Positions 26,652 through 36,615 of a DNA stretch of 49,267 bases are shown here, one piece after another (within the stretch, counting starts at the first letter, position 1; each line of letters begins with the position of its first letter). The notes beneath the pieces are model-generated. The model saw only the letters and a program-made list of their open reading frames with translations, did no database searches and was not told the origin of the DNA. The stretch comes from Candidatus Nanoarchaeia archaeon (GTDB taxonomy: Archaea > Nanobdellota > Nanobdellia > Woesearchaeales > SKGA01): the NCBI GenBank assembly GCA_028691765.1, contig JAQUYS010000004.1, positions 1 to 49,267 on the forward strand, in the 5' to 3' direction. A program made the position numbers and the translations under genes.

Positions 26652-27263
26652 TTAAATTTCTAAACTTTTATTTTGGTTTTTTATTAATAAAGTTCTGTTA
26701 TCTATAACAACAACGCTCAATAAACCCAATTTTTGTAATTCTTTCACGTGTCTATACAATGTTGCTCTTGAGCAATATTTTTTTTCATCTACAAACCGAG
26801 TTTTTAGTCCAATCATATCTACATCCATGTGTTCTACCACATCCATTATTTTTTGTTTAACCCAGTCTTTTTTATTTTGACTAATTATATTTGATTCATA
26901 AATTCTTTTTTCTGTTTTGGTTGCAGAAAAATCAGTTTCGGTTGTTAAGTTTGATTCAGAAGATGATTCTTCGATAGGATTTAATTCTTTTATATTCTCT
27001 TGTTTCAGGGGTTTTTCGTTTAGTTTGGAATCAACATATTCTTTTAATTCTTCGATTTTTTTCACAAATTCTTCCTTTAACCAAATAAAATTATCTTCTG
27101 AGGGAGATTCTAAATCGGATTTTTTTGAAAATAACGCATTTTTAGCCAAAATACTTTGATTCTCAAGAATTCTTGAGTTTTGGGCTTCTAAATATTTTAT
27201 TTTTCTCTCTAAATAAGTCAATATTTCAAGTTTTTTGTTATTTTTGTTGTTTTTTTGTTCCAA
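26652..27263 (-). CDS. Coiled-coil + C-terminal winged-HTH protein
   Basis: N-terminal coiled coil; C-terminal CSRATLYRHVKELQKLGLLSVVVIDNRTLLI. Confidence 0.65.
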   Translation of the reverse strand: MEQKNNKNNKKLEILTYLERKIKYLEAQNSRILENQSILAKNALFSKKSDLESPSEDNFIWLKEEFVKKIEELKEYVDSKLNEKPLKQENIKELNPIEESSSESNLTTETDFSATKTEKRIYESNIISQNKKDWVKQKIMDVVEHMDVDMIGLKTRFVDEKKYCSRATLYRHVKELQKLGLLSVVVIDNRTLLIKNQNKSLEI

Positions 27264-27308: not shown

Positions 27309-27540
27309 TTTGTCTCAAAAATCTCACTTGAGACGAGATTGAGACAAATATTTTATTAAAATGGCTCTAAAATGGTTTTCCACAGGAAATAAGGGGGTGT
27401 CTCAAAAATCTCAAAAATCTCAATGAGACTGAGACAAATGAGACGAAATAAGCTAAAATGGATTTAAACAGTCTAAAACTAGTGTATTTCTGCGTCTCGG
27501 GTTGAGACTATTTTGAGATAAATTGATTTGCACTAGTCTC
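27309..27540. promoter_or_regulatory. GTCTC/GAGAC motif array with nested inverted repeats
   Basis: 10 GTCTC/GAGAC pentamers (27312, 27330, 27341, 27399, 27425, 27431, 27440, 27494, 27504, 27536); perfect 10-bp IR TTTGTCTCAA 27309-27318 / TTGAGACAAA 27339-27348. Confidence 0.85.
27375..27398 (+). promoter_or_regulatory. ORB-like candidate origin recognition box
   Basis: GTTTTCCACAGGAAATAAGGGGGT; matches archaeal ORB dyad + G-string and the copy at 1774-1798. Confidence 0.7.
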
Positions 27541-27647
27541 ACTGGACAAGTCGCAATAACGTATATAAATGATGAAAGATGCCATAAATTAGCTCCCATG
27601 ACATAAAATGTCTGCTGAAATAAAATGGGATAACCAAGGAGTTAAAA

Positions 27648-27926
27648 ATGGAAACAATAGATGTAAGTAAAAATTCACCTGAAAAAAAATTCAGGGCTAG
27701 TCCAATAAGTGCAACGATTTGGTCTAATGAAGTTAGAACTTCAGACGGCGAATTGAAAGTTTTTAGAACAATACACGTCGAACGAACATATAAAGATAAA
27801 GAAGGTAAATGGCAAAAAACCAATTCTTTGAGAGTTAATGACCTTCCTAAAGCTATTTTAGTCTTAAATAAAGCTTACGAATACATAAGTATAGTTGAAG
27901 AAGGCGACGAAATATCGGAGGAATAA
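27648..27926 (+). CDS. Small conserved-looking protein upstream of RadA, possible ssDNA/nucleic-acid binder
   Basis: 92 aa, KKFRASPISATIWSNE...FRTIHVERTYKDKEGKWQKTNSLRVNDLPKAILVLNKAYEYI; stop just before the RadA start. Confidence 0.5.
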   Translation: METIDVSKNSPEKKFRASPISATIWSNEVRTSDGELKVFRTIHVERTYKDKEGKWQKTNSLRVNDLPKAILVLNKAYEYISIVEEGDEISEE

Positions 27927-27927
27927 A

Positions 27928-28863
27928 ATGAGTAAAGATTTAACCGTAAGTGATCTTCCTGGTGTTGGATCTGCAACTGCAGAAAAATTAGCTGCGGGAG
28001 GATTTGATTCCTTAATAGCGATTGCTGTAGCCACACCTGCAGAATTATTAAATGCGTCAGGTGTAACTGAAGCAGCTGCACGTAAAATGATTCAAGCGGC
28101 CCGTTCTATGCTAGATATGGGCTTTCAAACAGGAGAAGAAATTTTAGCCAAACGTAATAACATAATAAAATTAAAAACAGGCGTATCTGCATTTGATATG
28201 ATGATGGGAGGAGGATTTGAAACAGGAGCAATTACAGAATGTTTTGGTCAATATGGTTCATCTAAAACACAAATTGCACACGTTTTATGCGTTACTTGTC
28301 AAATCGAGGACCCAGATGCGATAGCAGTATTTATTGATACAGAAAACACATTTAGACCTGATAGAATACAACAATTAGCGATAGGTGCGGGTTTAGATCC
28401 TGAAAAAGTTTTAAAAAATATTCGTGTAGCTCGAGCATTTAATTCAGATCATCAAATGCTCTTAGCAGAAAAAGTAGAGGAACTGATAAAAAATGGAGAT
28501 AAAGTTCGTTTAGTTATAGTTGATTCACTTACAGCCCATTTTAGAGCAGAATTCGTGGGAAGAGGAACCCTTGCAGATAGACAACAAAAACTAAATAAAC
28601 ACATGCACGTATTGTCCAAATTCGCAGATATGTATAACTTATGCGTATATGTAACAAATCAAGTAATGGCTAAACCAGATGCATTTTTTGGAGATCCTAC
28701 TGAAGCGATTGGAGGAAATATTGTTGGACATAATAGTACCTTCCGAATCTATTTACGTAAAGGTAAAAAAGGAACTAGAGTTGCCAAATTAGTGGATAGT
28801 CCTAATCTTCCAGATGCAGAATGCATTTACGAAGTAACTGAATCAGGTCTAAAAGATGTTTAA
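27928..28863 (+). CDS. radA: RecA/Rad51-family recombinase RadA
   Basis: HhH N-terminus, GQYGSSKTQ, LVIVDSLTAHFRAEFVGRGTLADRQQKLNKH; ATG 27928 after GGAGG. Confidence 0.95.
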   Translation: MSKDLTVSDLPGVGSATAEKLAAGGFDSLIAIAVATPAELLNASGVTEAAARKMIQAARSMLDMGFQTGEEILAKRNNIIKLKTGVSAFDMMMGGGFETGAITECFGQYGSSKTQIAHVLCVTCQIEDPDAIAVFIDTENTFRPDRIQQLAIGAGLDPEKVLKNIRVARAFNSDHQMLLAEKVEELIKNGDKVRLVIVDSLTAHFRAEFVGRGTLADRQQKLNKHMHVLSKFADMYNLCVYVTNQVMAKPDAFFGDPTEAIGGNIVGHNSTFRIYLRKGKKGTRVAKLVDSPNLPDAECIYEVTESGLKDV

Positions 28864-34116: not shown

Positions 34117-36615
34117 TTATTCTGAAGATTCTTCTTCAATAATATCGACAAGTTCTGCACTATCATCATGTTCGGCAATAGTTGCATTTTGAACTCGATC
34201 TGCGTCTGTTTTCAATCTCATTAATCTAACGCCTTGAGTATTTCTACCTATAACATTAATTTGAGATGCTCTTGTTCGTATTATTATTCCTTGTTGAGAC
34301 ACTATTAAAATATCTTTAGAATCATCAACACCTTTTACTGCAACAACATCTCCATTTCTTTCACTACATATGATGTTTCGAACTCCTTTTCCACCACGAT
34401 TAATTAAACGATAATCATCAATACGTGTTCTCTTACCATAACCATTTTCAGTAATTGTTAAAATGGTTTCAAGAGGATTCAATAAAATCATACTAATCAC
34501 GGAATCATTAGGAGCTAAAGTTATTCCTCTAACACCTCTACTAGTCCTTCCAATAGAACGAGCATCTTCTTCATTGAATCTAACGGCTTGACCTTTTTTA
34601 GTCGCAATAAGCAATTCTTGTTTTCCATCAGTTAACACAGCATTAATAACTTTATCACCATCATCTAAATTAATTCCAATAATTCCATTTTGACGAGGTC
34701 TTGAATAAGCCATCAAATTAGTTTTTTTAACAACTCCTTTTTCAGTAGCCAAAATTAAATGATGTTCTTCATTAAATTCTCTAACAGGAATAACCGCAGC
34801 AACACATTCATTTTCACTCAAATTAACTAAATTAACTATTGCCTTGCCCTTAGATTGTCTTCCAGCTTCAGGAACTTTCCAAACTTTCAACCAATGAACA
34901 TTTCCTTTATTTGTAAAAATAAGTAAATAAGAATGCGTATTTGCAATAAACAAATGCTCAATAATATCTTCTTCTTTCGTGGTTGCACCAATAACGCCAG
35001 TACCCCCTCTATTTTGAACTCTATATGTTAACATATTTGTACGTTTAATATATCCTGAAGCACTTATTGTTAAAATTTGATCCTCCTCAGGAATTAAATC
35101 TTCAATATCTAAATCATCATCATAATAATCAATAATATCTGTTTTTCTATTATCTTGGTACTTCTCTTTCACTTCTTCAAGTTCAGTTTTAACAACACCA
35201 CGTATTTTAACCTCACTTGCTAAAATTGATTCCAATTCTAAAATTAATTTTTTAGTTTCTTCATAATCGCTCTTAATTTTATTTTGTTCTAAACCAGTTA
35301 ATCTTTGCAACTTCATTTCTAAAATCGCTTGACTTTGTTCTTCACTTAAAGAATAGATTTCTTTTAATTTTTCTTTTGCAACAGAAGAATTATCTGCTTC
35401 CTTAATTAATTTAATTACTGCATCTATGTGATTTAATGCAATTGCTAAACCTTCTAAAATATGGGCCTTTTTGTAGGCTTTCTTCAAGTCAAAAGCAGTT
35501 CTTCTTTTAACAACCTCAATTCTATGATTTAAAAAATGCACCAAAATTTCTTTTAAATTCAATACTTTAGGTTGATTATCGACAATAGCTAAAAAAATGA
35601 TTCCTGTGCCAACTTGCAATCGAGTATGTTTGAAAAGTTGATTTTGTACAACTTCTTCATTAGCATCTTTTTTCAATTCAAAAACAATACGCATACCTTT
35701 ACGATCACTCTCATCTCGAATGTCGCTAATACCTTCAACTCGTTTTTCTTTTATCTCTTCAGCAATTTGTTCAAGTAAATCCGATTTATTAACTTGATAA
35801 GGAATTTCAGTAACAATTAATTTTTTTCTTCCATTCTTTTCTTCAATGTGAGATTTACATCTAATTTTGAATTTACCTTTACCAGTTAAATACGCTTGTC
35901 TTATTCCCGCATTACCTAAAATTATTCCTCCTGTGGGAAAATCAGGACCTTTAACAAGATCAAATAATTCATCTATTTCTAAATCAGGAAAATCTAAAAC
36001 TTTAATTGAAGCATCAACAACTTCAGAAATATTATGTGGAGGAATATTCGTGGCCATGCCCACCGCAATACCATTAGAACCATTAATCAATAAATTAGGA
36101 AGTCTAGTGGGCAACACAACAGGTTCTTCTAAACTTTCATCGAAATTTGGACGCATATTAACAGTTTCTTTTTCTATGTCCTTCAACATCTCATCACAAA
36201 TTTTAGACATACGTGCTTCAGTATACCTCATAGCAGCCGCATTATCTCCATCAACAGAACCAAAGTTTCCTTGACCTTGAACTAAAGGATATCTTAAAGA
36301 AAATTCTTGAGCCATACGAACCAAAGATTCATAAACTGCAGAATCGCCATGAGGATGATATTTACCTAAAACTTCCCCAACAATTCTCGCACATTTTTTA
36401 TAAGATTTATTGAATGTGATGCCCATATCATTCATAGCATATAGGATCCTTCTATGAACAGGTTTTAAACCATCTCTAACATCGGGCAATGCACGACCAA
36501 TTATAACAGACATAGCATAATCTAAGTATGCACTTTTCATTTCATCTTCTAAAATTCCACTAACAATATGACTATCGTTAGCCTCTATTTTTATATCGTT
36601 ATTTTCGTCCATCAA
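34117..36615 (-). CDS. gyrA: DNA gyrase subunit A (bacterial type)
   Basis: [38 protein letters not shown]-terminal pinwheel repeats, acidic tail. Confidence 0.96.

Follow-up and report, generated by a model that had tools for sequence, protein, structure and literature searches.

A conserved repeat array joined to an ORB box beside a winged-helix gene in Woesearchaeota: a candidate for a new kind of chromosome start or partition site

Here, we describe an array of phased TGAGAC/GTCTCA repeats that encloses or abuts one or two predicted ORBs, the ORB being the binding box of the universal archaeal replication initiator Orc1/Cdc6, and that comparison of related loci links, throughout the Woesearchaeota, a little-known order of very small archaea, to a gene for a coiled-coil winged-helix (wHTH) protein. 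The best explanation, to which we give a probability of about 0.5, is a composite Orc1/Cdc6 and wHTH element that most likely serves as a secondary replication origin. According to this proposal, the wHTH protein would very probably bind TGAGAC as an oligomer, with the coiled coil self-associating and the winged helix contacting DNA, and Orc1/Cdc6 would very probably bind the ORB beside it. The two could form a secondary, replicator-specific chromosomal origin in the manner of Sulfolobus oriC3/WhiP or of iteron plasmids, at which the cis-encoded wHTH protein might remodel the site or control Orc1/Cdc6-dependent MCM loading; the primary origin would lie at cdc6. In the family of the analyzed genome, in which the array lies in the region of the divergent radA and wHTH promoters, it may regulate both genes.

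The repeat array and its ORB

The window, i.e., the whole stretch of DNA analyzed, comprises 49,267 nt of contig JAQUYS010000004.1 from the Candidatus Nanoarchaeia archaeon assembly GCA_028691765.1, a genome of 1.09 Mb. The dense GTCTC/GAGAC array reported in the first-pass annotation is confirmed: ten pentamers lie at 27312–27540 versus 14 in the remaining 49 kb of the window, and 2000 shuffles of the region that kept dinucleotides yielded 0.57 pentamers on average and never more than four. The low density of GTCTC elsewhere and the conservation of the motif in relatives both speak for that description. The hexamer GTCTCA forms the core of the array (nine copies, with four elsewhere in the window), TCTCA occurs 13 times in it, and direct TGAGAC pairs at most 25 bp apart are found only here across the 1.09-Mb genome, in which the 230-bp array is unique. 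Chance clustering of the repeats is rejected by the shuffles, by this genome-wide uniqueness, and by the linkage to the wHTH gene as compared with control loci.

The repeats fall into three blocks with no assigned strand. The left block (27309–27348) holds GTCTCA at 27312, ATCTCA at 27321, and direct copies of TGAGAC at 27329 and 27340, i.e., 11 bp apart; the central block (27399–27444) has GTCTCA at 27399, ATCTCA at 27408 and 27417, and TGAGAC at 27424, 27430, and 27439; the right block (27494–27519) combines GTCTC-GGGTT-GAGAC (27494–27508) with TGAGAT (27514–27519). Inverted repeats are present where the first-pass annotation had placed them. The outer ACTAGTG/CACTAGT palindrome that it had listed among them is absent from both same-family sequences inspected (L035 and L036) and is probably due to chance. 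An Rfam search of the array returned nothing convincing.

The ORB-like box previously noticed inside the array is real and conserved. This predicted Orc1/Cdc6 site, TTCCACAGGAAATAAGGGGGT, lies on the forward strand at 27378–27398, has a spacing one base shorter than the longer ORB form, and directly abuts the GTCTC at 27399–27403; the same ORB-TGTCT junction occurs in related loci.

Conservation across the Woesearchaeota order

A search of 100 relatives with the wHTH protein found it in 40 genomes, and a profile search of the genome collection gave 37 loci, all from Woesearchaeota/Nanoarchaeota or unclassified archaeal assemblies and including the complete chromosome of archaeon GW2011_AR15 (AR15). 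Matches in a sample of the phylum, the listing of which does not state the number of genomes from other orders, were confined to the Woesearchaeota order. We compared 38 loci, i.e., the 37 from the profile search plus the window, with 55 control loci (radA outside the family, and cdc6), an array being defined as three or more GTCTCA within 300 bp next to the wHTH gene. Arrays were present in 33 of the 38 loci and in none of the 55 controls (Fisher p = 3e-20), an ORB with at most one mismatch was near the wHTH gene in 30/38, and 36/38 had an array or an ORB beside it. GTCTCA clusters and ORBs occur at wHTH loci even where radA lies elsewhere. Neighboring direct repeats are spaced by 11, 22, or 33 bp, with 86 of 103 pairs within one base of an 11-bp phase. 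Such helical phasing is the signature of an oligomerizing protein whose subunits line up on the same side of the DNA.

Exact ORBs in 100 genomes (n = 88) were located beside group-1 genes (within 1.5 kb) in 19 cases and beside cdc6 in 26; another 15 were within 15 kb of cdc6, mostly at about 10 kb, 28 lay elsewhere, and none of the 88 was beside a group-2 or group-3 paralogue. The reversed ORB pattern, used as a control, had one match. The array ORB is usually fused to a repeat (AGGGGTGTCTCA): GTCTC abuts 17 of 40 array ORBs versus 0 of 21 cdc6 ORBs (p = 2e-4), and TGTC abuts 30/40 versus 3/21. As this junction is common at arrays and rare near cdc6, the array ORB represents a distinct composite element. 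It is quite likely, by our judgement and not as a computed value, that the array is a composite site shared with Orc1/Cdc6. The sole perfect ORB of AR15 sits in the array locus, as does that of contig C1 of a further genome, G070.

Archaeal origins of the canonical type combine cdc6 with an adjacent pair of inverted ORBs. The array locus is like oriC1 of this canonical type in its ORB sequence and in the presence of Orc1/Cdc6 in the genome, but differs from it in lying away from cdc6, in its single or same-orientation ORBs, and in the extra repeat and protein. The window array has one ORB, and related loci listed with two have both in the same orientation; no inverted ORB pair flanking an AT-rich unwinding element was found at the window array or at these loci. 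Several group-1 loci and group-2/3 arrays are without ORB. A second ORB of the window genome (1777–1798, forward strand) lies upstream of the TBP and MCM genes and has no repeat array. Given that ORBs are also found near TBP-MCM, the presence of an ORB is not in itself enough to identify an origin. The ORB located about 10 kb from cdc6 in several relatives may be the same TBP-MCM ORB.

The radA operon and the operator alternative

On the other side of the array, the window encodes an operon that starts with a small protein of 92 aa (27648–27926, forward strand), which has no Pfam match and is conserved upstream of radA in the Woesearchaeota order, followed by radA of the Rad51 family (27928–28863, forward strand; Pfam Rad51 8e-85, same-family synteny). 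The TATA-like box of this operon, GTATATAAAT (27559–27568, forward strand), was recognized by sequence and has the same position in relatives. Just upstream of it, CACTGGACA (27540–27548) is conserved and often occurs in tandem; sequence comparison indicates that the last GTCTC of the array (27536–27540) overlaps this promoter element, forming GTCTCACTGGACA (27536–27548, forward strand).

This arrangement between two divergent starts is compatible with a transcriptional operator array. The wHTH protein would then regulate its own gene and, in the window's family, the divergent small-protein-radA operon as well, with Orc1/Cdc6 serving as a transcription factor at the ORB. Some Orc1-like proteins do regulate transcription, e.g., Haloarcula Orc1-2 (PMC9738581), and the wHTH gene has the array on its 5′ side in 24 of 33 cases. 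However, five arrays are 3′ of the gene and three inside it (one is unassigned), and the genes beside the wHTH gene and array differ between families, which indicates that the array is more than an operator of radA or a site of autorepression. The earlier placement of the array at the small-protein-radA operon holds for the window's family, the only one in which radA is next to the array; elsewhere, the array has other neighbors. A radA-specific operator is thus rejected as a general explanation, because the wHTH gene and array sit elsewhere outside this family, and a simple autorepressor site is weakened by the eight of 33 arrays 3′ of or inside the gene. Furthermore, radA keeps its own conserved CACTGGACA in genomes without an array (CACTGGAC is present in 26 of 32 radA upstream regions, array-less genomes included and some genomes counted twice), and the uniqueness of the array speaks against a regulon. 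We consider the operator explanation unlikely. Of the proposal in the first-pass annotation that the array is an operator, an origin, or both, the wHTH protein as predicted binder and the conserved ORB stand, and the radA operator is not general.

The 5′ leader of the small-protein-radA operon (27580–27645) is itself conserved across the order and consists of a variable hairpin and, after it, the sequence UGAAAYAARAYGCGAAAGCAAGGAGG. In 200 partner shuffles the highest score was 5.11, compared with 5.30 for the helix 5′ of UGAAA; the leader had no Rfam match and RNAalifold found no consensus fold for it. Possibly, it is a cis-regulatory RNA of a new type.

The coiled-coil winged-helix protein

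The putative binder of the array is encoded by an ORF on the reverse strand at 26652–27263, with TTG as the listed, putative start. Its AlphaFold2 model comprises helices at residues 4–50 and 56–92, a disordered linker, and a wHTH domain at 116–195 (pLDDT ~95). Searches of Pfam, NCBIfam, PHROGs, and PDB sequences for a known family gave only weak or scattered matches, and Foldseek retrieved generic winged helices only (best E 4e-3), with no convincing solved relative. In some genes the linker between the coiled coil and the wHTH domain is encoded by repeat units (QSQSQGS in L253, SESQPSLS in L019).

Binding of the protein to the repeat is best supported by covariation between the predicted recognition helix and the repeat sequence. 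The family is conserved across the Woesearchaeota order and its recognition-helix motif CSKATFYRY, which reads CSRATLYRH in the window protein, is nearly invariant and pairs with TGAGAC repeats. Paralogues with the helix CSKSSFYRL or CSKSTFYRL pair with TGGGA[AC] arrays (L028, L030, L032, and G070 at 854.4 kb), and those with CGRTAFY pair with GGTTCG repeats (L025 and, more weakly, L021 and L026). This concerted change of helix and repeat, seen over about eight paralogue loci and without a tree, makes it very probable that the protein binds its repeat, a claim in which we have high confidence as a matter of judgement and not of a computed value. The earlier assignment of the array to the wHTH protein as predicted binder is strongly supported by this covariation together with the order-wide linkage of gene and array. 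In G070, contig C1 positions 854364–856923 hold a group-3 paralogue, a TGGGAAT array, a second coiled-coil protein, and a gene for an Xer-like recombinase; on the 1.0-Mb contig, some 475 kb separate this locus and the group-1 array.

A long coiled coil combined with a wHTH domain would also suit a partition or nucleoid-anchoring site, i.e., a centromere-like array whose ParB/SegB-like or nucleoid-associated wHTH binder serves to compact the origin region or to segregate it, while the ORB would do no more than mark the neighborhood or couple it to replication. Such a role is in accordance with phased arrays that are concentrated at one locus per genome, with an array on a small circular element, and with paralogues that have their own arrays elsewhere, one of them beside the Xer-like recombinase gene of G070. 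The tight fusion of repeat and ORB, however, points to replication proteins, and, unlike in ParABS/SegAB, no gene for a ParA/SegA-like ATPase is a recurrent neighbor among the 38 loci. We regard partition as conceivable and rather improbable.

A probably circular mobile relative

The wHTH family is also present on L253, a viral-collection contig of 3,638 bp with a 127-bp terminal direct repeat, which indicates that it is probably a circle of about 3.5 kb. L253 carries a wHTH gene with GTCTCA sites in the coding sequence, an array without ORB, and further encodes a P-loop-bearing 377-aa protein and a NikA-like protein. That this circular element and a viral contig have the same wHTH family with GTCTCA sites could mean that the chromosomal array is the remnant of a captured plasmid or virus replicon, a module that was brought in by extrachromosomal elements and may have lost its activity; a precedent for captured origins is reviewed in PMC4010727. 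Yet repeat, ORB, and recognition helix are conserved in many families and a DUF192 gene neighbors the wHTH locus in 16 loci, which argues for long-term selection in the chromosome and leaves a mere remnant very unlikely.

GTCTCA arrays were also seen in viral contigs without the wHTH family (L310, L315, L347, L348, L294, L309, L323, and L343), mostly unrelated phage contigs and in some cases at the end of primase/helicase-like genes. Their occurrence in unrelated phages means that the repeat alone is not diagnostic.

Strand asymmetry and the position of cdc6

In AR15, the minimum of the cumulative GC skew (873,171) is close to the array (870,363–870,663) and the largest jump in gene orientation (60-kb arms) is at the array, at 870.5 kb; the amplitude of the skew is not significant under block shuffling (p = 0.25). 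The array of G070 ranks in the top 7–16% for GC-skew jump and gene orientation is less consistent there, and the 27 short loci (~4 kb on each side) show no consistent switch in skew or gene orientation. Ribosomal-protein genes in the window read toward the array, which counts against an origin. The window also contains a DNA gyrase subunit A-like ORF at 34117–36615, as judged from reading its translation.

Orc1/Cdc6 is represented by two TIGR02928 matches in the window genome and by at least one in all 100 relatives. The cdc6 gene is not beside the array; it lies on contig C67 in the window genome and 402 kb off in AR15. In both AR15 and G070, the keto-skew extremum is within about 1.6 kb of cdc6 and not at the array. 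This position suggests a primary origin at cdc6 and, for the array, a secondary one at most. The earlier reading as an origin, for which a GC-skew analysis had been proposed, is plausible: the strand asymmetry with its switch at the array is good in AR15, but weak in the second chromosome, G070, and absent from the 27 short loci. Considering these weaker signals and the sharper keto skew at cdc6, origin function is likely and unproven. Our own estimate for the array being a replication origin, again a judgement and not a computed value, puts the chances at about even.

Known systems and biological significance

The closest functional parallels are oriC3/WhiP and UBP/ucm, neither of which matches in all features. 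Sulfolobus oriC3/WhiP is an origin with a winged-helix initiator for which capture from extrachromosomal elements was proposed (PMC4010727). It resembles the array locus as a proposed second chromosomal origin with a cis-encoded winged-helix protein, the gene-array linkage being order-wide here; unlike the array element, which includes an ORB, oriC3 has none, and compared by description with WhiP, the present protein is a small coiled-coil protein with one wHTH domain. UBP is a small DNA-binding protein that acts through a defined motif, ucm, next to the ORBs at Sulfolobus oriC1 (PMC12141716), and to this extent parallels the predicted binding of the wHTH protein. However, ucm occurs as a single site flanked by two ORBs, and its binder UBP has hundreds of sites and is not cis-encoded, whereas the arrays studied here are at one locus beside the wHTH gene. 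PDB profile matches of the wHTH protein (E up to 1) included no UBP chain, the presence of the UBP entry in the searched set being unconfirmed. Iteron plasmid replicons likewise have helically phased direct repeats beside the gene of the binder (here a predicted one), but the array is chromosomal and holds an ORB, and the wHTH protein has no homology to known Rep families. A literature search for replication origins of Woesearchaeota or DPANN, in which subscription journals were mostly not covered, brought up neither a description of the array element nor a paper on Woesearchaeota origins.

More tentatively, the wHTH proteins may constitute an order-wide initiator family unrelated to Orc1/Cdc6 or WhiP, each encoded beside its own iteron array and cooperating with Orc1/Cdc6 at the fused ORB. 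Paralogues with new helices and repeats would then provide several independently addressed chromosomal sites per cell, and the module would be shared with small circular elements.

The array locus is a candidate for a new type of chromosomal site, at which replication starts or partition takes place. It gives concrete origin candidates, with a specific protein, a repeat, and a fused Orc1/Cdc6 box, that are amenable to binding assays and to analysis of metagenome read depth. The paralogue series, in which helix and repeat change together, is a natural data set for the evolution of DNA-recognition specificity, and the presence of gene and array on a small circular element is relevant to the question of how chromosomes gain extra origins.
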